Shown here piece after piece: positions 27,422 to 44,913 of a stretch of DNA of 64,000 nucleotides. Below the pieces are notes generated by a model that worked only from the letters and a program-made list of their open reading frames with translations, had not been told where the DNA came from and did no database searches. Both the position numbers and the translations under genes were made by a program. Source of the DNA: Anaerolineaceae bacterium (GTDB taxonomy: Bacteria; Chloroflexota; Anaerolineae; Anaerolineales; Anaerolineaceae); the NCBI GenBank assembly GCA_016841525.1, contig JAENYZ010000001.1:186001-250000 (forward strand). The letters are read 5' to 3'. Position 1 is the stretch's first letter. Each line of letters begins with the position of its first letter.

Positions 27422-28270
27422 TTGGCTGTCAATTACACCACTTTAAAAGAGTTCATGACAACAATATACGACAGCGCCAAACGAAAACATCCTGCCGTTG
27501 AAGAGCTGGTCTCCTTATGGAAATACCGGGACCTTATCTATCAACTGGTTCGCAGGGATATCGTTGCGCGATACAAGCGCTCGGTTCTGGGCGTCGCGTG
27601 GACCATGCTCAACCCACTCGGCACAATGTTGATCATGGTCGTCGTTTTCTCACGTGTTTTTCGTGGAACTGAAAATTATGCCGCCTATGTCCTGACCGGG
27701 ATCATATGCTGGACAATGTTTTCTCAATCGACATCCATGGCGATGAATTCTATGGTTTGGGGCAGTCAGTTAATTAAACAAATTTATGTGCCGCGCTCAA
27801 GCTTTGTCGTATCAACAATCATGGCAAGCATGGTCAATTTTGTTTTATCCCTTGTGCCCCTGTTCTTGATCTTTGCGATAACAGGCGTCCAGCTTAAATC
27901 ATCAGCACTCTTGTTGCCCGTTTTCATGCTTTTATTATTTTCATTTTCGCTTGGTATAGCTTTATTGATTTCCACACTTGCAGTGTTCTTTCCTGATGTT
28001 GCTGATTTATATCCGGTTGTTCTGACGGCATGGATGTATCTGACGCCAATTATTATGCCCCTGGAATTTTATCGTGAGATACTGGATGGCCTTCTTTTGT
28101 ATATCAATCCTTTCTACTATATTGTTAATTTATTCCGAATCCTTATGCTTGATGGATTTGTCCCGCATTTACAAACCTGGGTGGCAACTGCAGTTTCATC
28201 CTTTGGGGTACTCATCATCGGATGGATTTTCTTTTGCTTAAAAGCTGACGATTTTGCATATCACATCTAA
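27422..28270 (+). CDS. ABC-2 type polysaccharide export permease (Wzm/TagG-like)
   Basis: LVRRDIVARYKRSVLGVAWTMLNPL; ABC-2 TM pattern; followed by Wzt-like ATPase. Confidence 0.92.
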   Translation: MAVNYTTLKEFMTTIYDSAKRKHPAVEELVSLWKYRDLIYQLVRRDIVARYKRSVLGVAWTMLNPLGTMLIMVVVFSRVFRGTENYAAYVLTGIICWTMFSQSTSMAMNSMVWGSQLIKQIYVPRSSFVVSTIMASMVNFVLSLVPLFLIFAITGVQLKSSALLLPVFMLLLFSFSLGIALLISTLAVFFPDVADLYPVVLTAWMYLTPIIMPLEFYREILDGLLLYINPFYYIVNLFRILMLDGFVPHLQTWVATAVSSFGVLIIGWIFFCLKADDFAYHI

Positions 28271-28274
28271 TTCA

Positions 28275-29030
28275 ATGACAAGAGAACCTCAACCCGATAG
28301 TGCAATCTTTCTAAATAATATTTCAGTTCGTTATCGGATTCCGACCGAAGCTATCCATACATTTAAAGAATACATGATCAAACTCTTAAAACGAGAAATT
28401 GATCATAAATCCTTTTCAGCATTGAAAGAAATCGACCTTGATGTCAAGCGGGGTGAGATTTTTGGAATCATCGGGCGGAATGGTGCGGGCAAATCCACCC
28501 TGATGAAAGTCATCTCAAAAGTCTTAATCCCGACGGATGGAAGGGTTTGGGTTAAAGGTCATGTCAGCCCTTTGCTGCAGCTTGGAGCTGGTTTTCACCC
28601 AGAATTGACCGGGCGAGAAAATATTTACTTAAACGCGACACTTTTAGGTCATTCCCACATAGAGATTGAAAGCAAATTGGATGAGATCATCGAATTTGCA
28701 GAAATTGGCAGCTTTATTGAAGCACCGCTGAGAACCTATTCCTCGGGCATGCAATCCAGGTTAGGATTTGCTGTCGCAACAGCCTGGCAGCCAGATATCC
28801 TCATCCTCGATGAAGTCCTGTCCGTAGGTGATACTGCTTTCCAAAAAAAATGTATTCATCGCATGGGAAAATTCCGGGATAGTGGGGCAACAGTATTAAT
28901 GGTTTCACACTCAATTGACCAGGTAAGAGAAATTTGCGAACGAGCGCTTTGGCTCAACAAAGGCCAAATCGAAAGCCTTGGCTCAGCTGACGAAGTTTGC
29001 ACCATGTACCAGAATGCAATGAGCAGCTAA
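28275..29030 (+). CDS. ABC transporter ATP-binding protein (Wzt/TagH-like, no extended C-terminal domain)
   Basis: GRNGAGKSTLMKVIS, YSSGMQSRLGFAVAT, ILILDEVLSVGD. Confidence 0.93.
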   Translation: MTREPQPDSAIFLNNISVRYRIPTEAIHTFKEYMIKLLKREIDHKSFSALKEIDLDVKRGEIFGIIGRNGAGKSTLMKVISKVLIPTDGRVWVKGHVSPLLQLGAGFHPELTGRENIYLNATLLGHSHIEIESKLDEIIEFAEIGSFIEAPLRTYSSGMQSRLGFAVATAWQPDILILDEVLSVGDTAFQKKCIHRMGKFRDSGATVLMVSHSIDQVREICERALWLNKGQIESLGSADEVCTMYQNAMSS

Positions 29031-29156: not shown

Positions 29157-29705
29157 ATGGAATTTATACCGACAGCCATACCCGATGTAATTATTATAAA
29201 GCCCAAAGTCTTTACAGATGATCGCGGCTTTTTTATGGAGTCTTATCAAAAACAGGCATTTTTTGAAGCCGGCTTACCCCCTGAATTTGTTCAGGATAAC
29301 CACTCATCCTCTCAGTTGGGTACGCTCAGAGGTCTGCATTACCAGCTCACCCACACACAGGGAAAATTAGTGAGAGTGGTCATCGGAGAGATTTATGATG
29401 TGGCAGTAGACTTACGTAAAAGCTCCCCTTATTTTGGCAAATGGGTTGGGGCGTATCTCTCGGCAGAAAACAAACACCAGCTTTGGATTCCACCGGGGTT
29501 TGGACATGGCTTTTTCGCAACGACTTCTCAAGCAGATGTTCTTTACAAAGCCACGGATTACTATGACAAACAAGGTGAGCGCTGCATATTATGGAATGAT
29601 CCTGATTTGGCGATCGATTGGCCTATCCCAGACGACCTCACACCATTGATCTCCGAAAAGGATACATCCGCACCAAAATTTAAAGAAGCAGAGGTATTTT
29701 CATGA
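29157..29705 (+). CDS. rfbC: dTDP-4-dehydrorhamnose 3,5-epimerase
   Basis: DDRGFFMESY, FVQDNHSSSQLGTLRGLHYQ, VDLRKSSPYFGKWVG, GFGHGF. Confidence 0.97.
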   Translation: MEFIPTAIPDVIIIKPKVFTDDRGFFMESYQKQAFFEAGLPPEFVQDNHSSSQLGTLRGLHYQLTHTQGKLVRVVIGEIYDVAVDLRKSSPYFGKWVGAYLSAENKHQLWIPPGFGHGFFATTSQADVLYKATDYYDKQGERCILWNDPDLAIDWPIPDDLTPLISEKDTSAPKFKEAEVFS

Positions 29706-30781
29706 CACGAAAACTCCTGGTAACAGGCGGCGCAGGATTCATTGGCTCTAATTTTGTTCGGTACATACAGAATGTTTCGCCAGAGACGCAAATCACCAAC
29801 CTAGATTTGCTGACTTATGCCGGTAGTCTCGAAAACTTAAGAGACCTTCCTGTGCCACAAAATCACCATTTTGTACATGCAGACATTCGAGATCAATCCC
29901 AGGTAGAGAATTTACTCAGGCAAAATCAAATTGACACGATTGTCCATTTTGCCGCAGAATCCCATGTGGATCGCTCTTTGCAAGGACCTTCCGCCTTCAT
30001 CCAAACCAATATTGACGGGACTTTCTTATTGCTTGAAGCAGCACGTAAAGTCTGGCTTGAAGAAAAAGCAGTTGACTCAACAATTATTCGCTTTCACCAC
30101 ATTTCAACCGATGAGGTTTACGGTACTTTAGCCCCTGAAGATCCCGCTTTTGAGGAAACAACACCTTACGCACCCAATTCGCCCTACGCAGCTTCCAAAG
30201 CCAGCAGTGACCACCTGGTGCGATCTTACAACCATTCCTTTGGCTTACCTGTCACCATCTCTAACTGCTCCAATAACTACGGACCATATCAATTTCCCGA
30301 AAAATTGATTCCTTTGATGATCCTGAATGCGCTAACAGGAAGACCGCTGCCCATTTACGGAGACGGCATGCAAATCAGGGACTGGCTGTATGTTGAAGAC
30401 CACTGCGAAGCCATCTGGACCATTATCGAAAAAGGAAGAGATGGCGAGAGTTATAACATTGGCGGAGAAAATCAACCACCAAATATCGAAATTGTCAAAA
30501 CCATTTGTCAGATCCTCGATGAAAAGGGATTGCAAAATAGACCTCATGAGCAATTAATCACATATGTACAGGATCGCCCGGGTCACGATCGGCGATATGC
30601 GATGAATATTAATAAAATCCATAATGAATTGGGGTGGCAGCCCAAGCATGATTTAGCACAGGGTCTCAGAGATACTGTGGATTGGTACATTGAAAACACC
30701 GATTGGTTAAATGCCATAATAAAAGAAAAAGATTACCAGCAATGGGTTCAAATCAACTATCAACAGAGAGGTAATGCATGA
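29702..30781 (+). CDS. rfbB: dTDP-glucose 4,6-dehydratase
   Basis: [52 protein letters not shown]. Confidence 0.97.
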
Positions 30782-31653
30782 AAGGTATTATCCTTGCGGG
30801 GGGAAAAGGCTCCCGTCTTTATCCACTCACACTTGGCGTCAGTAAACAGCTGCTGCCAGTGTACGATAAACCAATGGTTTATTATCCCCTTTCAATGTTG
30901 ATGCTCGCAGGCATCATGGAGATATTGATCATCACCACCCCTGAAGATGCTTCACAATACGAGCGCCTTCTGGGTGATGGGATGCAGTGGGGGTTGAAAT
31001 TTGATTATGCTATCCAGGAAAAACCCAGGGGACTGGCGGACGCCTTTATCGTTGGAGAAAAATTTATCCAGGACGACTCTGTTGCGCTTATCCTGGGGGA
31101 CAACATCTTTTATGGTCAGGGCATGCCCCCCACCTTAAGAAAAGCTGCCAATTTGAAAAAGGGTGCGGTTGTTTTTGCCTATCCCGTGCACGATCCAGAG
31201 CGTTATGGTGTTGTTGAATTCGATAAGCAAGGAAATGCCCTCAGCCTGGAAGAAAAACCTAAAAATCCGCGATCACAATATGCGGTACCCGGCATTTACT
31301 TTTATGACAATTGTGTTGTCGAATATGCCAAAAACTTAGAACCATCTGCAAGGGGCGAGATCGAAATTACCGATCTTAATAAAGTATACATGTCTCAAGG
31401 TGAGCTTAGTGTTGAGGTGCTCGGCCGCGGCGTTGCCTGGCTGGATGCAGGGATGCATCACTCACTTTTGCAAGCTTCAAATTTTGTGCAAGCGATTGAA
31501 GAACGCCAGGGAATGATGATTTCATGCCCTGAGGAAATAGCTTATCGGATGGGCTTTATAGACGAAAAACAACTCAGGCATTTGGCGCAAATCTTCAATG
31601 GTAATCGCTATGGTGAATATCTCCTACGGTTGGCGGATAAAAAAATTGATTAA
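30778..31653 (+). CDS. rfbA: Glucose-1-phosphate thymidylyltransferase
   Basis: [46 protein letters not shown]. Confidence 0.97.
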
Positions 31654-31674
31654 TGATGTAATTAGAAATTGACT

Positions 31675-32553
31675 ATGAAAATTCTTCTTTTAGGTAACAC
31701 AGGTCAGCTTGGATATGAACTCAATCGCACCCTTCTCAGTTTGGGTAATTTGGTAGCACTTGATTTCCCACAAGTTGATATGTCAGATCCTGATAATATT
31801 CGGTCAATGGTTAGGGAGCATCAACCAAACCTGATTATCAATGCCACTGCCTATACGAATGTAGACAAAGCTGAAAGCGAAACAGAGCTCGCAAAGGCAA
31901 TCAATGTGACAGGCCCTGGTATCTTAGCAGAAGAAGTAAAAAAAATTCGTGGTGCCTTGATTCACTATTCAACAGATTACGTATTTGATGGCACCAAAGG
32001 TGATGCCTACATTGAGAGTGACAAACCAACACCGCTGAGCATCTATGGGGAGACCAAAGAGGCAGGAGAGCAAGCTGTTCAATCTGTGGGCGGCGCATAT
32101 TTGATCTTTCGAACAAGTTGGGTTTATTCCATGAGACGCCCCTGCTTTGTGACCAAGGTTTTGGAATGGGCAAGGAAGCATGAAACGCTTCGAATTGTTG
32201 ATGACCAAATATCCACACCAACCTGGGCGCGGGAACTGGCAGAAACGACCACGCATATAATCGCCCATGGAAAAGACCAATTTGTCGAATACGTCGCTGA
32301 AAATTCTGGCTTATATCATTTGTCTGGTAATGGCTCTTGCAGTCGTTTTGAGTGGGCACAATCCATATTGGCGCTGGACCCTGAAAAAGAAACTCAAGTA
32401 ACAAAAGAGCTGCTGACTGCATCCTCAAGTGACTTCGACACTGCGGCGCAAAGGCCATTGAGATCAACTTTGTCATGTGAAAAGTTTGAAAGCACATTTA
32501 GTTTAAGGCTTCCATACTGGCAAGATGTGCTCCAATTGGCTATGCAAAGTTAA
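31675..32553 (+). CDS. rfbD: dTDP-4-dehydrorhamnose reductase
   Basis: MKILLLGNTGQLGYEL, NATAYTNVDKAE, STDYVFDG, YGETKEAGEQAV. Confidence 0.95.
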   Translation: MKILLLGNTGQLGYELNRTLLSLGNLVALDFPQVDMSDPDNIRSMVREHQPNLIINATAYTNVDKAESETELAKAINVTGPGILAEEVKKIRGALIHYSTDYVFDGTKGDAYIESDKPTPLSIYGETKEAGEQAVQSVGGAYLIFRTSWVYSMRRPCFVTKVLEWARKHETLRIVDDQISTPTWARELAETTTHIIAHGKDQFVEYVAENSGLYHLSGNGSCSRFEWAQSILALDPEKETQVTKELLTASSSDFDTAAQRPLRSTLSCEKFESTFSLRLPYWQDVLQLAMQS

Positions 32554-32578: not shown

Positions 32579-33826
32579 ATGCGAAATTATTTTGTGCTTC
32601 TCAAAGACTACTTACTTATACAACGAAGTGGTCTTTTTGATTCCGAGTACTATTTCTACAATTACCCCGATGTTCGCCAGGAAAAAATCAACCCGATTTG
32701 GCATTTCATCCAATTTGGTTGGCGTGAAGGAAGAAACCCCTCGCTGTATTTTGACACGAAGTATTACCTCGCTAATAATGAAGACGTGCAACAAGCAGGG
32801 ATAAATCCACTTTCCCATTGGCTTTTAACAGGCTTGTATCAACAAAGAGAGCCGTCTCCCTTTTTTCAGTCACCTAAAGCATTTAACAAACAAAATATTG
32901 AGGGTGATAATAAAGGATTATTATCCAGATACCTGACTTGCATTCTGAAAAACAAAAACAAAATATTAAAGCCTGAACCACGAGATTTCTCTTTTCAAGA
33001 AGATAAGGATTTTATAGATCGACTTTATCAAAAAAAACATGGGCATGTGATAAATTATGTAAATCCACGCAAATTCACCGAAAAGATGCAAATTTACAAG
33101 TTGTATTATCGAGAACCAATCCTGCAGACTTTAGCAAATAAATTTCTTCTCAGACAATTTATAGCCGATAAATTGGGTGAAGAATACCTGGTTCCACTGA
33201 TCGCTGTTTATGATGATATTGATTCAATGTCAATTAATAATCTCACCAATCAATTCGTCATCAAGGTCAATCATGGGTCAGGTTGGAATATCATCTGCAG
33301 AGATAAATCCCAGCTCGATTGGGATCATGCAAAATTTAATTTGAATCAATGGTTACATACAAACTATTATTGGAAGTTTCGTGAGTGGTGCTATAAAAAT
33401 ATTCCGCCAAAAATCATTGTCGAAGCATTGCTTTTGGATGAAAAGGGTAAAATACCTTCCGATTATAAAGTTCATTGTTTTAATGGCTTGCCCAAAATGA
33501 TCGAGGTTCATTTCGATAGGTTTTCTAATCATAGAATCCTGTATTTGGATTTAGACTGGAACATCCTCCCATTTCATAAATCTTATAAGCAAAGTTCTGA
33601 AAAACCCCCAAAACCCGCCAATATTCAAAAAATTATTGAGTTTGCAGGGAAACTTTCTAAAGGACTCCCCTTTGTTAGGGTAGATTTTTACCTTATAAAC
33701 GAAAAACCATATATTGGGGAGATGACATTTCACCCCGGTTCAGGGTTTTCAATATTCCATCCTCAAGAATGGGACGAAATCATCGGCGCTTGGTTTGATA
33801 TCTCGGATTTTTATCAAGAAAAATAA
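32579..33826 (+). CDS. TupA-like ATP-grasp polysaccharide enzyme with N-terminal YYLxNYPDV-type repeat tag
   Basis: N-term SEYYFYNYPDV...NPIWHFIQFGWREGRNPSLYFDTKYYLANNEDV...; C-term VIKVNHGSGWNIICRDKS, KIIVEALLLDEKGKIPSDYKVHCFNG. Confidence 0.85.
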   Translation: MRNYFVLLKDYLLIQRSGLFDSEYYFYNYPDVRQEKINPIWHFIQFGWREGRNPSLYFDTKYYLANNEDVQQAGINPLSHWLLTGLYQQREPSPFFQSPKAFNKQNIEGDNKGLLSRYLTCILKNKNKILKPEPRDFSFQEDKDFIDRLYQKKHGHVINYVNPRKFTEKMQIYKLYYREPILQTLANKFLLRQFIADKLGEEYLVPLIAVYDDIDSMSINNLTNQFVIKVNHGSGWNIICRDKSQLDWDHAKFNLNQWLHTNYYWKFREWCYKNIPPKIIVEALLLDEKGKIPSDYKVHCFNGLPKMIEVHFDRFSNHRILYLDLDWNILPFHKSYKQSSEKPPKPANIQKIIEFAGKLSKGLPFVRVDFYLINEKPYIGEMTFHPGSGFSIFHPQEWDEIIGAWFDISDFYQEK

Positions 33827-33959: not shown

Positions 33960-34919
33960 GTGAGCACTTTCGCAAAGTTGAGATTGTCGAGAAGGAAGAT
34001 TGAATTGAACACCAACAGACGCTGCGTTTTCACCACACTCATTGGCGATTATGAAGCATTAAATGAGCAAGAAGTTTCAAGAAAATCCGCTTTGGATTTC
34101 ATTTGCTTCACAGACAACCAAAACTTAAAGAGCGACACCTGGAAAATCATTCCAATTGACCCGGTCCTGCCCTATGACAGTGTGAGAAGCGCAAAAGCAA
34201 TCAAAATTTGCGCGCATCAGTACTTGCCCAATTATGATACATCGCTTTATATCGACAACAGCGTGACTTTAAACGTAAAACCAGAGGATATTTTTACCGA
34301 TCTTCATTCAGAAGCATTCGATATGATTTGTTTTGAACACAGCTTCAGAAAAAATCTGATGGAGGAATTTGCACTCGTTCTCAAGCATGAATACGACAAA
34401 CCCAATATCATCATTGAACAACTGAATGCCTACAGCCTGATTGATTCGAGGTTGGTTTTTCAAAAGCCTTACTGGGCAGGATTCATGATCAGAAATCACA
34501 ATGCGCCATCGATCATCAAGGCCATGGAAGATTGGATGGTGCAAATCATGCGTTATTCAAGGCGCGACCAGCTATCGCTGAATTACATTTTACAAAAACA
34601 CAGCCTTAATTTTAAAGGTTTAGAGATCGACAACCGTCATTCCCAGTATCATGATTGGCCGACATCTACCCGGTATGGAGATGTTTCCTTAAAACAAAGC
34701 CTGTTTACGAACATTGAAAGCAACCTCAGGGTCATTGCGCAAGAAAAGGAAATCAATCGTTTAAAGCAGCTGGTTTGGGAGCAAAATCGGAAAATCGATC
34801 TGCTGCAAGAGCAAATTAAGTTTTATTCCGAAAGTAAGAGCTGGTTGATCACAAAGCCGCTGAGGGCAACATTCAATTTATTCAGGAAGAATAAACCTGA
34901 AAACTATGATGAAAAATGA
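33960..34919 (+). CDS. DUF616/TOD1-like glycosyltransferase with C-terminal coiled coil
   Basis: CVFTTLIGDYEALN, DFICFTDNQ, YLPNYDTSLYIDNS; C-term SKSWLITKPLRATFNLFRK. Confidence 0.75.
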   Translation: MSTFAKLRLSRRKIELNTNRRCVFTTLIGDYEALNEQEVSRKSALDFICFTDNQNLKSDTWKIIPIDPVLPYDSVRSAKAIKICAHQYLPNYDTSLYIDNSVTLNVKPEDIFTDLHSEAFDMICFEHSFRKNLMEEFALVLKHEYDKPNIIIEQLNAYSLIDSRLVFQKPYWAGFMIRNHNAPSIIKAMEDWMVQIMRYSRRDQLSLNYILQKHSLNFKGLEIDNRHSQYHDWPTSTRYGDVSLKQSLFTNIESNLRVIAQEKEINRLKQLVWEQNRKIDLLQEQIKFYSESKSWLITKPLRATFNLFRKNKPENYDEK

Positions 34920-35066
34920 TAAATTGAGGTTCTAAAGTTTTTATTATGGAACAATTACGATTTATATTAGAGCAGAACGATAAGTTTCAATACTCTGAAT
35001 TTATTCTGGAATTTTTTCAGACAAATCGTTTGTTGAAAATATTGGTTTTGCTTTTTGGGAGAATTG

Positions 35067-36494
35067 ATGGAGCCGATTAAAGTCGTCTTTTTTACACACG
35101 AAGTAATAAATAGCCCCCTTAAACATTTAAGAGTTGTAGGTCCAATCTCATTTACAAATATGGAATTCAAAGCTGTAACTGATACAAAAGAGGACATTTA
35201 CAATTATATCGATGACGCAAATATTATCGTTATTCAGAGAACCTTTCCTGCTGATGTTCCCCTTTTTACAAGAATATATGAAGCTTCAAGAAAACTAAGA
35301 AAGCCTTTGGTTTATGATCTTGATGACAATTTGCTGATTTTGCCAAAAACCCATCCGGATAGAGAAAATTATTCGATCTCAAGGGGATTACTGCCAATGC
35401 TGCATGCTGCCTTTGCTGCAGATTATTTAACAGTATCAAGTGAATGCCTAAAACAAAACTTCTCAAATGTAAATCCAAATATTTTTATCCTGCCAAACTT
35501 GATAGATGATAAAATTTGGAAATTCAAGTCACCCACAATTGAAGATCATGATTCAAAGCTTACCATCGGTTACATGGGAGGAGATTCCCACACATCAGAC
35601 CTTGATTATATCGCTCCAGTGTTGACTAAAATTAAAGAGCAGCATCCAAATAAGGTTAGGTACCACATTTACGGCGTCAAACCGCCGGAAGCACTTTTAG
35701 CCTTTAACGATACAGCTTGGACACCGATAAAAACATACCAGTACGAAGATTTTGCTAAAGAATTTCAAAAAATATCTTTTGATATTTTTATTGCCCCTTT
35801 GTTAGATAATGAATTTAACCGTTGTAAAAGCCCAATCAAATTTCTTGAATATACGACATTAGGCGTCCCTGTTATTTGCAGTCAGGTATCACCATATTCT
35901 GAAGTAATAACTGACGGGGAAAATGGCTTGCTAGCAAACGACCCTGATCAATGGGATGAAAAAATAAATTTGCTGGTTTTAGATCCCGAGCTTCGTTACC
36001 GATTAGCCGTTAACGCGCAAACGCTTGCTGAAGACAAATATCTAATGTCCAAAAATTCAGACCAATGGCTTAATACTTATCGGAAAATCAATGAACATGG
36101 CATTTCTTCTCCTAACCAGAAAGATCTTTCCGAGAATTTTATTCAATCCATTTCAGATCAATTATGTGAATATCACGCTCATATCGATGCTGAATTGGCA
36201 GAACAAAGGATTAACATAGATAGGAAAAACAAAACCCTGGCCAGACATAAAGAAGAAATCCATGACCTGAAAATTAGGATCCAGAACATGGAAAACAAAA
36301 TAAAAGATCTTCAGGGTGGAATAAATTGTTTACAATCAGAATACCAAACACTTCAAACAGAATATCAAAATCTTCAAAGAAATCTAGAAGCTTGTGAACA
36401 ACAACTTTTACAGTACGCACTCAGTAAAAGTTGGCGGTATACAAGGCCGTTCAGAAAATTAAAACGCCGAATTTTGGGTGATAAAAATGATTAA
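35067..36494 (+). CDS. Glycosyltransferase (GT4-like) with C-terminal coiled coil
   Basis: LVYDLDDNLLILPKTHP, IGYMGGDSHTSDLDYI, FIAPLLDNEFNRCKSPIKFLEYTTLGVPVICS. ATG 35067 preferred. Confidence 0.85.
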   Translation: MEPIKVVFFTHEVINSPLKHLRVVGPISFTNMEFKAVTDTKEDIYNYIDDANIIVIQRTFPADVPLFTRIYEASRKLRKPLVYDLDDNLLILPKTHPDRENYSISRGLLPMLHAAFAADYLTVSSECLKQNFSNVNPNIFILPNLIDDKIWKFKSPTIEDHDSKLTIGYMGGDSHTSDLDYIAPVLTKIKEQHPNKVRYHIYGVKPPEALLAFNDTAWTPIKTYQYEDFAKEFQKISFDIFIAPLLDNEFNRCKSPIKFLEYTTLGVPVICSQVSPYSEVITDGENGLLANDPDQWDEKINLLVLDPELRYRLAVNAQTLAEDKYLMSKNSDQWLNTYRKINEHGISSPNQKDLSENFIQSISDQLCEYHAHIDAELAEQRINIDRKNKTLARHKEEIHDLKIRIQNMENKIKDLQGGINCLQSEYQTLQTEYQNLQRNLEACEQQLLQYALSKSWRYTRPFRKLKRRILGDKND

Positions 36495-38193
36495 AGACAT
36501 TTATCACTACATTATCATCGAAAGAAGCAAATTATTCGATAAGGCTTATTATTTACAAAATTACCCCGATGTGCTCTACGCTGATGTTGACTCCTTGTGG
36601 CATTACATTCGGATTGGATGGAAAGAGGGAAGAAATCCATCTCAAAGTTTTAACACAAATTATTATCTTAATGAAAACGCAGATGTTAAACGGGCCAACA
36701 TCAACCCACTAATCCACTACATTAAATTCGGACAAAAAGAAGGGAGAGCGGCGAACCCGGTGCCGCAGCCTGGCACTGGAAAGTATAATTTTGAGCCTGA
36801 AAAGAGCAGCCCTGAAACAGAGATCCCAATATTTGATAAAGAGTATATCCAAACCCACACAAAGAAATTAGATGAGGATTTGGGATTTAAAAAGATAAAA
36901 ATTTACGGTTCTGAGATTAATTTGGATGATAAATCAAGAAATGATTCTGAAGACATCACACTTTATGACACAAAAATCTCCATAATCATACCGACAATTA
37001 ATGCTGGTGACGATTTTGATTTTTTAATCAAGATGCTGCTAAACCAAAAGGGTTTTCGTGAAATCGAAATCGTGATTGTAGATTCTGGGAGCTGTGACCA
37101 AACACTTGAAATCGCCAATCGATATAAGGCAAAAATAATTGAAATTCCAAATGAAGAATTTTCTCACTCACATGCAAGGAACCTCGGTGCAAAGAACGCT
37201 TCAGGAGAATATCTTCTATTTACAGTTCAGGATGCCCTGCCTCCTTCACTGACCTGGCTAAATGAATTGGTGACAGCATTGAAGACGAAAGATGTCAGCG
37301 CGGTCTCATGCGCCGAATTGCCTCGCGAAGATGCAGATCTTTTTTACCGTGTAATCAGTTGGAACCATTATGAATTCCTTGGTGTCAACAAAGATGATCG
37401 CATCCTTTCAATGCCTGAGGAAACAAATCATTTCAACCTGCGGAAAAATGGGCAATTATCTGATTTAGCATGCCTGATACCGGCTGAGCTTTTCAGAAAG
37501 TACCAATACCGATTTTCTTATGCGGAAGATCTTGATTTGGGAATTCGATTGATCAAAGATGGTTTGAAGATTGCTTTTTTAGGCTCAACACGAATCATCC
37601 ATTCCCATAATCGACCTGCGTATTACTTTTTAAAGCGCGGATATGTGGATAATATTTTCCTCTCCGATATTTTCGAAGATTTCAAAATTCCACAAGTGAC
37701 CCTTATAAATGTCATCGAAGACATTGCTTTCAGTTATAACTTTTTAATTAAAAATGTGTTTACTAAGATTCAGGCGTTGATTTTCCCAATTCAATTATCC
37801 ACACTTCATATGGAAGTCAAGCAATACCTTGGTGAGGCTAAAACTTTTCAGTACCCAATAAAGACCTCATATCAGGAAAATATAAACCTTGACCCTGATT
37901 TGTCTGGTTTTATTGAATTAATAATTAATGAATCCGGATATACCCAGATAAATGGCAACTATCAAGGTAATCTGATTGAAGCCATGTTTGGATTTGTCAA
38001 TGTTACATTCGAATATCTCAAGACAACGCATGACATCATTGATAAACCTTTTATTGAATCGTTGACAGCGTGTTTGACTAAAGAAATTTCAATCCTGGCT
38101 GGTGCACATTTAGCATATGCATTTATCAATCGATCTGATGAGGATCAAGAGTTGGCAGCTTTATTACATTCAATCTTGAAGGCAAACGTATGA
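36478..38193 (+). CDS. GT2 family glycosyltransferase with N-terminal repeat tag
   Basis: KAYYLQNYPDV...LWHYIRIGWKEGRNPSQSFNTNYYLNENADV...; GT2 ISIIIPTINAGDDFDFLI, FTVQDALPPSLTWL. Confidence 0.88.
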   Translation: MIKMIKDIYHYIIIERSKLFDKAYYLQNYPDVLYADVDSLWHYIRIGWKEGRNPSQSFNTNYYLNENADVKRANINPLIHYIKFGQKEGRAANPVPQPGTGKYNFEPEKSSPETEIPIFDKEYIQTHTKKLDEDLGFKKIKIYGSEINLDDKSRNDSEDITLYDTKISIIIPTINAGDDFDFLIKMLLNQKGFREIEIVIVDSGSCDQTLEIANRYKAKIIEIPNEEFSHSHARNLGAKNASGEYLLFTVQDALPPSLTWLNELVTALKTKDVSAVSCAELPREDADLFYRVISWNHYEFLGVNKDDRILSMPEETNHFNLRKNGQLSDLACLIPAELFRKYQYRFSYAEDLDLGIRLIKDGLKIAFLGSTRIIHSHNRPAYYFLKRGYVDNIFLSDIFEDFKIPQVTLINVIEDIAFSYNFLIKNVFTKIQALIFPIQLSTLHMEVKQYLGEAKTFQYPIKTSYQENINLDPDLSGFIELIINESGYTQINGNYQGNLIEAMFGFVNVTFEYLKTTHDIIDKPFIESLTACLTKEISILAGAHLAYAFINRSDEDQELAALLHSILKANV

Positions 38194-39484: not shown

Positions 39485-39897
39485 ATAGGTAAAATTTATC
39501 CACAATCAAATTTTGATTATTTCAGTTGGTAATGTTTATCCATGTGGAAAAAATAGAGTTTTGTTTTTCCAAGTGAATTTATACATCAACAAGATTTAAT
39601 TTTCATTTTCAGGTTTAGTCTTTCGCTTGTCCACTGAGGATTTAAATTCTCTAATTAGGCATCTGGCATCTGCCAATTAACCAATTCTGAGAAATTGTTT
39701 TCCTTTCAAAAAATCAACAAGTGCCCAGCCTAAAACATATATGATTTTTGCAGTTAATCTCACATTTCAATCGCTCGAGAGGATTAAGATAATGATTTCG
39801 GTAAATGATACATTTCACTACCCCTGATGATTCATGAAAATCAATGCTGGTATAATTATCGAAATTTTCAAATCTAAATTTAAGAGGGACTAAAATT

Positions 39898-41925
39898 CTG
39901 AAATCATTCATTGTTCGTCAACTCAGACTTATCCAAGACTATTTCACCATTCGCAGGAGTGGTCTTTTTTATCCTGCCTACTACCAAAACACAAATCCCG
40001 ACAGCAAACGTGCAAAACGAAACCCGATCCTCCATTATCTTATTTCTGGCGCAAATCTAGGCAAAGACCCTTCCCCAGAATTCAGCACCAGTTATTATTT
40101 GCATCAATATCCAGATGTACAGAAATCCGGCATCAACCCTTTCGTACATTACATCCTTTACGGCAAAGATGAAGGCAGGATCATTCACCCTATTGAATCC
40201 TCAAAGTACCAGGGCTACGCAAACTGGGTAAAGAAGTACGATTCGCTCACATTGGACGATTATGATTTGATACATTCTCACATTGCCTCCTTTGGGAAAC
40301 GTCCACGTATTTTAATTGCGTTGGTAATACCAGAGGATTTCAAGAATTTCGATTGGGTTAAACACTCGATTTCTTCTGTCATTTTCCAAATTTATCCTCA
40401 CTGGCAGTTGAATATTTTCTGTGATGACGAACACAAATCAAAACTTGAACCAATTCTCATGGAATTCGGTAAAAAGACACACAAAATTGCGATTTCTTAT
40501 ATCAACACCAATCAAGATTTAGCACTACATCTAGACGAAGTCATTAATTCCGAACAGGGTGGATTCTTCATACACCTTTTACCTGGTACGGTTTTGCGAG
40601 AACACACCCTTTACCTGATCGCAAACGAGATCAACCACTTCCCTGAAGCTGAAGTTATTTACACTGATGAAGACCAGCTCAATGAGCAAGGAGAAAGATC
40701 CTGGCCGTTTTTCAAGCCCGACTGGAATCCTGATCTGATATTTTCACTTAATCTATTATCTAACGTTGCAGTTTTTAAAACTGACTCCCTGAGAAGAATT
40801 GGCGGAATGCCATCCGGACAAAATAAGGATATTGATTTGGATTTGGCTTTGCGCATCTCCGAAGTTATCCCGGGTTCACGCATCCAACACATAACCCACG
40901 TAGGTGCACATCGTCTTTATCAAAAGGACAAACAAGCGACCAAAGAAGCCCACTTCCAGACCATCAAATCACATTTTAACAGCCTAGGAAAAGACATCAC
41001 CTTAATTAAAACGGACAGCCCTTATTGGCGTATAAGCTATCCAATTCCAGCCCCCGCTCCCCTTGTGAGCATCCTGATACCCACTAAAAATCAGTATGAT
41101 CTGGTTAAAAATTGCCTCGAAAGCATAAGACAAAAAACATATTACTCGAATTACGAAGTACTGATCATCAACAATCAAGTAGAAAAATCGGAAAGCGGCA
41201 GCGCATTCGAATATATCGAAAGAGAATTTAAGGCACAACTCTTAGACTACAATCACCCGTTCAACTATTCTGCAATAAACAATTTCGCTGCCAAGCATGC
41301 AAATGGTGACATATTCTTATTCTTAAATGACGATATTGAAGTCATTGCCCCAGATTGGCTCGATGAAATGGTCAGCCATGCGGTAAGAAAGGAGATTGGC
41401 GCTGTTGGGGCAATGCTTTATTTTCCAAACAACGCGATTCAACATGCCGGTATCGTTTTGCACCCGGATAGGATTGCAGGCCATGCCTTTTACTTACAGG
41501 CGAGAGGTTCCCATGGGCAGAATGATCGGGCTCGTCTCGTTCAGAATTATTCAGCCGTAACCGGTGCATGCATGGCAATTGAAAGGACAAAATTCCACCA
41601 GGTCGGCGGCTTTGACGAAGAGAACCTGCCTGTAGCATATAACGATGTCGATCTTTGCCTCAAGTTGATGCTGGCAGGTTACCGTAATTTATGGACGCCG
41701 TATGCAGAGCTTTATCACTATGAGTCAGTCACACGAGGGCTTGATAACACAGAAGAAAAACTGAACCGCTTGAGAATGGAAGCCAGGTACATGCTCAACA
41801 AATGGGGTTCATTTATTTTGAATGACCCAGCTTACCACCCAAATTTGAAAAGCTATCCATTTTTCTCATTAGCAGAACCGCCTCGCGCCCCAAAGCCCTG
41901 GCTATCCCAGGATTCAATCAATTAA
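39898..41925 (+). CDS. Bimodular GT2 glycosyltransferase with N-terminal repeat tag (start extended to CTG/ATT)
   Basis: Frame open upstream of 40099: (M)KSFIVRQLRLIQDYFTIRRSGLFYPAYYQNTNPDSKRAKRNPILHYLISGANLGKDPSPEFSTSYYLHQYPDV. SD-like GAGGG 9 nt upstream of CTG. Confidence 0.85.
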   Translation: MKSFIVRQLRLIQDYFTIRRSGLFYPAYYQNTNPDSKRAKRNPILHYLISGANLGKDPSPEFSTSYYLHQYPDVQKSGINPFVHYILYGKDEGRIIHPIESSKYQGYANWVKKYDSLTLDDYDLIHSHIASFGKRPRILIALVIPEDFKNFDWVKHSISSVIFQIYPHWQLNIFCDDEHKSKLEPILMEFGKKTHKIAISYINTNQDLALHLDEVINSEQGGFFIHLLPGTVLREHTLYLIANEINHFPEAEVIYTDEDQLNEQGERSWPFFKPDWNPDLIFSLNLLSNVAVFKTDSLRRIGGMPSGQNKDIDLDLALRISEVIPGSRIQHITHVGAHRLYQKDKQATKEAHFQTIKSHFNSLGKDITLIKTDSPYWRISYPIPAPAPLVSILIPTKNQYDLVKNCLESIRQKTYYSNYEVLIINNQVEKSESGSAFEYIEREFKAQLLDYNHPFNYSAINNFAAKHANGDIFLFLNDDIEVIAPDWLDEMVSHAVRKEIGAVGAMLYFPNNAIQHAGIVLHPDRIAGHAFYLQARGSHGQNDRARLVQNYSAVTGACMAIERTKFHQVGGFDEENLPVAYNDVDLCLKLMLAGYRNLWTPYAELYHYESVTRGLDNTEEKLNRLRMEARYMLNKWGSFILNDPAYHPNLKSYPFFSLAEPPRAPKPWLSQDSIN

Positions 41926-41967: not shown

Positions 41968-43672
41968 CAGAGGCTGTCTAAAAAGATGGCCTCTTTTCTA
42001 TTAAAAAGATAAAAAACAAAAATTTGGAAAAAAACACAAAAAAAGTAGCAACTATTGAGCTGCTACTTTAGCGATATTATGCGCTATACAGAGGATCCCC
42101 CACTCTGTTTTCACCTTATCTAAACCCCTCAACATAAATCTTCTGAACCCCCAATTCTGCTTCAACCTGCCAAAAACAGCCTCAACTTCCACAGGTCTTT
42201 GAGATCGGACTTCTTTTCCTTTGGGTGACAAAAGCCGTTCATGGGCGGCTTTCTTCATTTTCAATAATTCAACGCCCACCCACAACCTACGTTGATATTT
42301 TGATCTGGTACATTCCCTCATGACCGGACAGCTCTGGCAAGCAGCACCGCCATAGATCCGCCGTTGGGTCTCATAACCGTTGTCTGTGACATATTTTTTG
42401 GTATACAGATAGGTCAGTCGCTGGCCTTGAGGGCACTCATATTGATCTTTGTCTGAAAGATATTTGAAATTCTCCGGTCGATATTTGGTCATGTTTTTAC
42501 TGTAATGCCGCTTTTGTTCATAATGGAAGGTGTTGTATTTCACATAGGCTGTCACCTGATTTTCTTGTAGGTAAGCATAGTTCTCCTCACTGCCATACCC
42601 TGCGTCAGCAATCAAGCTCTCAGGATATTCTCCTAACCACTCCCTAACATGGTCCAGATGTGGCTTCAAACAACTCGTATCACCAGCCCGTTGATGGACG
42701 CTGTAACCAATAACAAATTGATTTTGTGTTCCCATTTGGATGTTGTAACCAGCCTTCAATTGGCCATTAAGCATGTGATCTTCTTTCATCCGCATGAAGG
42801 TTGCATCGTGATCGATTTTTGAATAGCTATTGCGCCCCTCGAAAGTCTTTTCTTGTTCCTCATATTTCTCTTGGCGTGGGATGAAGTCTTTCTCTAAGCT
42901 GCGTTTGGCTTTCTTCAGTGTCTTGTTCTTGGGATCCTTTTTCAATTTCTGATTGATCTTGTCCGCCACCTGTTTCAGCTCTTCAGAATCAATTTCTTTT
43001 CCTTCCCCGACCTCTTCCAGATCCTTATCGCCATACTCTGCTTCTTCTTCAGCTTCCAGTTCATCAATTTCATCTAATAAAGCCCTGACTTTCTCCTGCA
43101 GACTGGCTTTGTATTTCTCCGTGCTCTTTCGCCATACGAAGCTGTATTTATTGGCATTTGCTTCTATCTTTGTCCCATCGATAAAATACTTTTCTAAATC
43201 GATATATCCCTGATCCAGTAGCTGTTCCACAACAGCATAAAACACCTCATCAATCACCGCCTTCATGATCTTTCCACGAAATCGATTGATGGTCCTGAAA
43301 TCGGGCCGATTCATTCCACTCAACCACATGAAGTTGATTTTCTCTCTCAGTGCTTTGGCTATCTGCCTGGAGGAAAAGATCCGCTGGGTATAGCCATACA
43401 CAATCACTTTTATCAACATTTTAGGGTGATAGGCGCTTGTACCGCCACCTTTGTATTGCCTGATGAGTGGCTCGATATCTATGCGTTCTATGATTTCATC
43501 CACCACTCTTACCAGATGACCAGAGGGTATCAGCTCTTCCAGGTTGGGCGGAAGAAGCATTGGTTGGTTTTGTTCGTATGGTTTGAAGATTTGTTTTTTC
43601 ATACCCCCTATTGAATCATACTTTTCAATCTTTGTGAAGAGGGGCTATCCCTGACTTTTGGGACAGCCCCTG
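41968..43672. mobile_element. IS1182-family insertion sequence
   Basis: Imperfect TIRs CAGAGGCTGTCTAAAAAG (left) / CAGGGGCTGTCCCAAAAG (right, revcomp) flank the transposase. Confidence 0.85.
42052..43602 (-). CDS. IS1182-family transposase
   Basis: LVRVVDEIIERID, SSRQIAKALREKINFMWLSGMNRPDFRTINRFR, LIADAGYGSEENY, EAVFGRLKQNWGFRRFMLRG. Confidence 0.95.
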   Translation of the reverse strand: MKKQIFKPYEQNQPMLLPPNLEELIPSGHLVRVVDEIIERIDIEPLIRQYKGGGTSAYHPKMLIKVIVYGYTQRIFSSRQIAKALREKINFMWLSGMNRPDFRTINRFRGKIMKAVIDEVFYAVVEQLLDQGYIDLEKYFIDGTKIEANANKYSFVWRKSTEKYKASLQEKVRALLDEIDELEAEEEAEYGDKDLEEVGEGKEIDSEELKQVADKINQKLKKDPKNKTLKKAKRSLEKDFIPRQEKYEEQEKTFEGRNSYSKIDHDATFMRMKEDHMLNGQLKAGYNIQMGTQNQFVIGYSVHQRAGDTSCLKPHLDHVREWLGEYPESLIADAGYGSEENYAYLQENQVTAYVKYNTFHYEQKRHYSKNMTKYRPENFKYLSDKDQYECPQGQRLTYLYTKKYVTDNGYETQRRIYGGAACQSCPVMRECTRSKYQRRLWVGVELLKMKKAAHERLLSPKGKEVRSQRPVEVEAVFGRLKQNWGFRRFMLRGLDKVKTEWGILCIAHNIAKVAAQ

Positions 43673-43758: not shown

Positions 43759-44913
43759 ATGAATGTTATCGAAATCATAATCCAATACTTTACAATAAAA
43801 AGCAGTGGTTATTTTGACAAGAACTTTTATATTACTGCTATTCCCAATGCTGATGGAATAAAACACTCTCCATTAATGCATTTCATAACAAAAGGCTGGC
43901 AGGATAATCTCGACCCCGGTCCTGATTTTGACACATCCTGGTACCTGAAAACTTATCCAGATGTCAAGGAATCCAAAGTCAATCCGCTTTTTCATTACCT
44001 GAAGTATGGGAAAAAAGAAGGGCGTCAAATTAAAAAACCTTATTTGCCTCAAGAGAGAACACCCCAAATTGTCACTCAAAACGTGGTTGATTTCATGGTC
44101 ATCGGGGCTCAACGTGCAGGCACAACCAGTTTGTATAAATTTTTAGACTTACTGCCATCTTTCTGTGGATCGGATGATAAAGAGGTTGGGTATTTCTCAA
44201 TCGATAGCAACTACAAAAAAGGCACGGATTGGTACCATCAGCAATTCAACACCTGCGCCAGGGAACAGCTAAAATTCGAAGCCACACCAGAATACCTTTA
44301 TTACTCGTTTGTCCCGGAGAGAATCAAAAAATACAGAAGCGATATGAAGTTCATCGTCCTTTTACGAGACCCTGTTAATCGATGTTATTCAGCCTGGAAG
44401 TTGTTTAAGAATATTTACGAACACGACCAGGCAAGCAGACAAAGAATTATTGAATACTCAAATGATACAAGAAATGACGCGCTTGCCAATTTGATGTCCG
44501 GAAAAGATTTTCCACATTTTTCAGAAGTTGTTATAGAAGATCTGGAACGTTTTTACACAAATAGTACAATCCTCGAACCATCATTTGTGCGTAGAGGCTT
44601 GTATTACCAACAAATAACTCACTGGCTGAATTTTATTGACAGGTCACAATTTTTATTTTTAGAGATAAGTGAACTGAATCAACCCGAAAAACTTCTGATG
44701 AAACTGCAAAATTTCCTGGCGGTCGATCTTGAGTTAGAAGTCCTTGATTTAAACATGCCAGAATATAATAAGCTGAATGGAAAGAAGATTATTGAGGTTG
44801 ACCCTGAAACCCTGAAGCTATTGCAGAATTTTTATCATCAGCATAACATAAACTTGTATCGACTGATCAATAAAGCTTACGACTGGCGCTCGAGCAATCA
44901 ACCTTCAGATTGA
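43759..44913 (+). CDS. Sulfotransferase with N-terminal repeat tag
   Basis: Tag FDTSWYLKTYPDVKESKVNPLFHYLKYGKKEGR; sulfotransferase FMVIGAQRAGTTSLYKFL, KFIVLLRDPVNRCYSAW. Confidence 0.9.
   Translation: MNVIEIIIQYFTIKSSGYFDKNFYITAIPNADGIKHSPLMHFITKGWQDNLDPGPDFDTSWYLKTYPDVKESKVNPLFHYLKYGKKEGRQIKKPYLPQERTPQIVTQNVVDFMVIGAQRAGTTSLYKFLDLLPSFCGSDDKEVGYFSIDSNYKKGTDWYHQQFNTCAREQLKFEATPEYLYYSFVPERIKKYRSDMKFIVLLRDPVNRCYSAWKLFKNIYEHDQASRQRIIEYSNDTRNDALANLMSGKDFPHFSEVVIEDLERFYTNSTILEPSFVRRGLYYQQITHWLNFIDRSQFLFLEISELNQPEKLLMKLQNFLAVDLELEVLDLNMPEYNKLNGKKIIEVDPETLKLLQNFYHQHNINLYRLINKAYDWRSSNQPSD

Follow-up and report, generated by a model that had tools for sequence, protein, structure and literature searches.

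A module of two 38-residue repeats, which we call the tag, stands at the N terminus of four unrelated enzymes (a TupA-like ATP-grasp enzyme, two GT2 glycosyltransferases and a sulfotransferase) encoded in a sugar-coat gene cluster of the window, the whole 64,000-nucleotide stretch of DNA that was analysed. We infer its contact, membrane position and function as follows: with a probability of about 0.5, the tag serves assembly, as an all-helical, non-catalytic module of two repeats that sits where a coiled-coil scaffold for the polymerase has its base. Fused genes and neighbouring genes point to a role in linking enzymes that build sugar polymers to a coiled-coil partner. The module's gene-order partner, newly described here, is a coiled-coil protein with the tail S-x-SW[RK]-x-T-x-P-x-R (the SW tail). 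The scaffold reading bears on how the enzymes of one polysaccharide locus stay together on the membrane; if the repeat is, more widely, a general assembly module, polysaccharide polymerases would resemble assembly lines built from docking parts.

Four enzymes of the window carry the tag

The TupA-like enzyme (32579-33826, plus strand) is encoded by a 415-residue ORF. An earlier note had placed two repeats in about its first 95 residues (32579-32863), and a leave-out profile confirmed them at 38 residues each: a cap helix (32579-32632) is followed by repeat 1 (32633-32746, residues 19-56) and repeat 2 (32747-32860, residues 57-94). The EGR element of the motif proposed there is absent from repeat 2 (...TGLYQQREPSP). 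Residues 168-406 match the TupA family PF14305 at 189 bits against a cut-off of 25, making the enzyme a clear family member; the tag lies outside that domain and is separate from the family.

The claim that three more genes with unrelated catalytic domains carry the module was also borne out, PF00535 being found twice and PF00685 once. These plus-strand genes encode the first tagged GT2, GT2a (36478-38193; PF00535; cap helix 36478-36531, repeats 36532-36645 and 36646-36759), the second tagged GT2 (39895-41925; PF00535; repeats 39964-40077 and 40078-40191) and the sulfotransferase (43759-44913; PF00685; repeats 43810-43923 and 43924-44037). The leave-out profile, built from 145 repeats with the window genome and its close relative G006 excluded, recovered eight of the eight window repeats at 24.5-66.4 bits (E values of 1e-6 to 8e-20); the best score among 20 shuffled copies of the window translations was 9.4 bits. 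No tag copies beyond these four were found in the 3.2-Mb genome. The window tags are 34-50% identical to one another and are old and diverged.

The locus exporter is a Wzm/Wzt-like pair of ABC-2 permease and ABC ATPase (27422-29030, plus strand; PF01061, PF00005). It is followed by untagged genes that presumably serve dTDP-rhamnose synthesis, arranged as rfbC, rfbB, rfbA, rfbD (29157-32553, plus strand; ORFs named by sequence resemblance), a presumed order that is repeated in four other tagged loci, L092-L095. Across 25 genomes, a Wzm homologue lay within 15 kb of 30/47 tagged genes versus 24/149 untagged GT2 genes among the matches listed (p = 1e-9); some of the loci counted are related, so the counts are not wholly independent. 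Most annotated plasmid loci in which glycan enzymes are tagged also encode an ABC permease or ATPase.

The tag is predicted to be all-helical and is under purifying selection

The repeat has the consensus LFDTSYYLATYPDVAAAGINPLLHYLRHGWKEGRDPSP, in which Y7, H24 and G29 are near invariant and E32, G33 and R34 strongly conserved. W30 and [ND]35-P36 occur in repeats that have another repeat after them, which marks them as junction residues. The module of GT2a was modelled with AlphaFold2 from 34 window and viral-contig sequences (pLDDT 96.7, pTM 0.87); the predicted fold is compact and all-helical, with a cap helix and short helices at positions 21-27, 29-33 and 38-44 per repeat. A six-repeat array (pLDDT 90, pTM 0.84) was predicted to form a regular rod.

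The earlier note had named an existing characterised family as the finding that would overturn its view of the module. We looked for a known family in Pfam, NCBIfam, PHROGs and the sequences and folds of the PDB, and this candidate was rejected, none being found. The 95-residue module had no significant match in Pfam, NCBIfam, PHROGs or PDB chain sequences; Foldseek searches of the PDB gave 0 matches for the two-repeat model at E <= 0.001 and none at that threshold for the six-repeat model, which had three at E >= 6. Neither TPR nor other helical-repeat families matched the module; in locus L020, one TPR precedes the tag. The repeat and SW-tail sequence strings were not found in open-licence papers. 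The module is thus absent from the family databases searched despite its wide occurrence.

Between the window genome and G006, dN/dS was 0.10-0.16 for the tags, 0.16-0.30 for the catalytic parts and 0.23-0.53 for the linkers of the three genes in which a linker was measurable. Purifying selection on the tags was at least as strong as that on the catalytic parts in most pairs.

Tagged proteins occur in distant bacteria and in viruses

The profile of the repeat and the survey of catalytic domains that the earlier note had suggested yielded 57 proteins in many enzyme families, comprising GT2, GT4, RgpF, TupA, WsaF, WbsX, DUF4422, glycerophosphotransferase, methyltransferases, sulfotransferase and RTX/serralysin; plasmid records from Alpha- and Gammaproteobacteria and Bacteroidota added GT61, FkbM and others. 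Polymer-acting enzymes carry the module, whereas nucleotide-sugar synthases do not. The module is mobile: it is N-terminal, middle or C-terminal depending on the carrier, and arrays reach 8 copies. On plasmid NZ_CP115852 (L031), two adjacent M10 serralysin-like proteins each have six C-terminal repeats.

In freshwater viral contigs, the module lies inside the phage minor tail protein L (PF05100). Diverged repeat copies are inserted in PF05100 in L118-L134 (for example L126:4332-5318), where the family match falls into two parts around them. In giant viruses, the module model matches glycosyltransferases, an FkbM protein and a 102-residue protein; one viral scan with a divergent query gave no match. 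The viral contigs L034, L039 and L042 contain short ORFs of about 110-230 residues that consist mostly of the two-repeat module and have no clear partner gene.

With the taxonomy of named carriers taken from plasmid, viral and structure records, the module occurs in Chloroflexota, Proteobacteria, Bacteroidota, phages and giant viruses. Its distribution is patchy, as the tag was found in 35/147 genomes of the family and 10/397 of the class sample. E. coli has one tagged gene, in 17/5426 genomes and mostly on plasmids. The Enterobacteriaceae plasmid loci L032 and L137 are of the ABC type and capsule-like, with tagged enzymes.

A coiled-coil protein with a basic tail is encoded next to the tag

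ORFs with an SW tail lay directly upstream of a tagged gene in 22/27 cases (18 overlapping), versus 21/679 for other ORFs (Fisher p = 2e-25); the profile was derived from the same locus set in which the tails were counted, and orthologous loci among the pairs are not independent. Of 356 ORFs in control clusters (20 glycosyltransferase clusters from the same genomes), none had the tail. By their heads, the SW-tail proteins form seven groups that show no homology to one another; GT4, GT2, RgpF and methyltransferase are among them, and most heads are GT4.

In the window, a plus-strand GT4 (35055-36494; PF13692) has a long C-terminal coiled coil (about 36162-36419) and the SW tail SKSWRYTRPFRKLKRRILGDKND (about 36423-36491). 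It lies directly upstream of GT2a, with a 17-base overlap. The preceding plus-strand gene (33960-34919; PF04765) encodes a TOD1/MUCI70-like glycosyltransferase, a candidate scaffold protein with a coiled coil and the SW tail SKSWLITKPLR (about 34833-34916). The two successive glycosyltransferases thus share a coiled coil and an SWxxTxPxR ending.

Coiled coil, SW tail, cap helix and tag are joined in one protein in L032, L137, L142, L171 and L103, and in divergent cases. The distance from the tryptophan of the tail to the tag was 34-36 residues for four fused proteins, 48 for the fifth, and mostly 31-37 in split pairs. The fused protein of L171, from genome G419, is 36% identical to the window GT4 (1e-60) and 32% identical to GT2a (4e-38), or 29% (3e-19) with the tag removed; it is a fusion of the counterparts of these two proteins. 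In L032, on an E. coli plasmid, the methyltransferase head of a methyltransferase-coiled coil-SW-tag protein is 59% identical to that of the split Chloroflexota locus L166, which suggests wide horizontal spread.

Four genomes of a single genus have no tagged gene except one that encodes a standalone tag of 90 residues, made up of cap helix and two repeats (L092:5897-6166, L093:5765-6034, L094:5983-6255, L095:5945-6214). Its start overlaps the stop of an upstream SW-tail GT4, and its dN/dS was 0.04-0.07 in three usable pairs. As the sole tagged gene, it argues against tags docking on each other; a partner in the GT4 or in the glycan fits it better.

The SW tail is strongly basic, with a net charge of +3 to +7. 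Tested as amphipathic helices, neither the SW tail nor the cap helix gave a significant result; the helical moment of the tail stayed within the range of shuffles, so its binding to the membrane is putative. No SW tail was detectable near 22 listed tagged loci, although several of these have one in fused or divergent form. In the window, the tags of the TupA-like enzyme, the second GT2 and the sulfotransferase have no SW-tail gene directly upstream, and the RTX/serralysin, phage tail protein L and giant-virus carriers have no coiled-coil partner in view.

Proposed arrangement and alternative explanations

In ABC-transporter-dependent loci, we propose a unit that would run from a catalytic head through a coiled coil, a basic SWRxTxPxR tail, a cap helix and two 38-residue repeats to the next catalytic domain. 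In some species the whole unit is one polypeptide; in others, the window included, a break between SW tail and cap helix divides it between two genes that overlap and are presumably coupled in translation. The tag of GT2a may pack on or beside the coiled-coil and SW-tail end of the GT4, where a ruler-like coiled coil would have its base close to the membrane. Chain-extending and chain-modifying enzymes (the GT2s, the TupA ligase and the sulfotransferase) could thereby be held where the lipid-linked polymer grows. The adjacency of SW-tail and tag genes could also stem from gene fission without contact. It is possible, and we propose it tentatively, that the repeat is a general assembly module which connects coiled-coil scaffolds with enzymes that build glycans, in widely separated bacterial phyla as well as in giant viruses, and which has been put to use again on secreted proteins and at the tips of phage tails.

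The main rival, which we regard as rather unlikely, is a carbohydrate-binding repeat that keeps the growing polysaccharide near active sites and anchors secreted and phage proteins to surface glycans. It holds this place because of the secreted and viral carriers: RTX/M10 proteins, phage tail protein L and glycan enzymes of giant viruses carry the module, and a tag for polysaccharide assembly does not by itself explain these proteins. Carriers that act on polymer rather than being nucleotide-sugar synthases, arrays of up to 8 repeats, frequent single-tag genomes and the conserved aromatic and polar residues Y7, H24, E32 and R34 all suit glycan binding too. It leaves unexplained, however, the tight pairing with the SW-tail coiled coil and the fixed spacing in fused and split forms; moreover, the core residues are identical in loci that presumably make different polymers, and the module resembles no solved structure, hence no carbohydrate-binding module.

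The earlier note had taken the module for a docking or scaffold tag that recruits enzymes into one complex. The shared module and an assembly role agree with the data, and the docking partner that emerges is the SW tail of a coiled coil, upstream or fused, rather than another tag. Docking between the tags of different enzymes, with a private code per locus, is quite improbable. Tagged enzymes often share a locus (25/38 within-genome pairs lie within 25 kb), and an upstream C-terminal tag faces a downstream N-terminal one in L032, L137 and L140. By contrast, 14/25 tagged genomes have a single tagged gene, which disfavours such docking as a general rule, and in four genomes the standalone tag is all that is tagged. 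The private code was rejected, since module identity was not raised within genomes (45%, versus 47% between genomes; p = 0.80). We also consider improbable a structural spacer or folding cap without a specific partner, spread by domain shuffling and gene fission. Promiscuous placement and the rigid rod predicted for the array speak for such a spacer, but the tags are under strong purifying selection, and a conserved standalone tag gene would be purposeless. Returning to the scaffold reading, a compact, conserved and easily expressed module matched to one specific partner tail makes it directly testable, and the tag can help to pick out partner enzymes in loci that lack annotation.

Relation to known systems

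Work on Klebsiella O4 and O7 shows that ABC-dependent glycans are built by complexes of several proteins, assembled on a coiled-coil protein that has a membrane helix and a site for recruiting the polymerase (PMC11231755). The WbdD and coiled-coil molecular-ruler terminators described there (E. coli O9a; Klebsiella O3, O4 and O7) belong to the same pathway type, that of ABC-transporter-dependent O-antigens (PMC11231755). They resemble the SW-tail proteins in having a catalytic head (methyltransferase in both L032 and L166), a long coiled coil and a basic tail to which polymerase enzymes bind or are joined by fusion; they differ in that the accessible text describes no 38-residue repeat (PMC11231755) and in that the heads found here are mostly GT4. 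The long coiled coil C-terminal to the catalytic head was seen in the window GT4 and in most SW-tail proteins, as judged by eye and from a composition proxy. Polymerase recruitment and control of chain length would also belong to a ruler of the WbdD type; for the SW-tail proteins, gene order and fusions were observed.

In modular PKS and NRPS systems, docking domains pair a C-terminal element of the upstream protein with an N-terminal element of the downstream protein. SW tail and tag likewise stand at facing termini and are fused in relatives such as L171; the docking domains, however, are unrelated in sequence to the tag and serve another pathway, and the pairing of the tag is seen from gene order and fusion. 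TPR and other helical-repeat interaction modules are also short all-helical tandem repeats on many enzymes, but the tag unit has 38 residues with short helices (34 in TPR) and no family or PDB fold match. Carbohydrate-binding modules are mostly beta-sandwiches, and the C-terminal domains of Wzt are carbohydrate-binding modules. Like the tag, Wzt C-terminal domains are modules without catalytic activity that are attached to glycan enzymes in ABC-dependent loci; in contrast to carbohydrate-binding modules, the tag is predicted to be all-helical.

Start of the second tagged GT2 and an interruption of the cluster

The annotated start of the second tagged GT2 is TTG at 40099, yet its open frame begins near 39895. 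No in-frame ATG, GTG or TTG lies upstream of the module, and the start region around 39895 is conserved in G006; translation probably begins at ATT 39895 or CTG 39898, not at TTG 40099. The sequence AAAATTCTGAAATCATT, at 39895-40099, is conserved in the related genome G006, and AGAGGGA precedes the ATT and CTG codons. Between this gene and the tagged sulfotransferase, a transposase-like ORF on the minus strand (42052-43602) interrupts the cluster.
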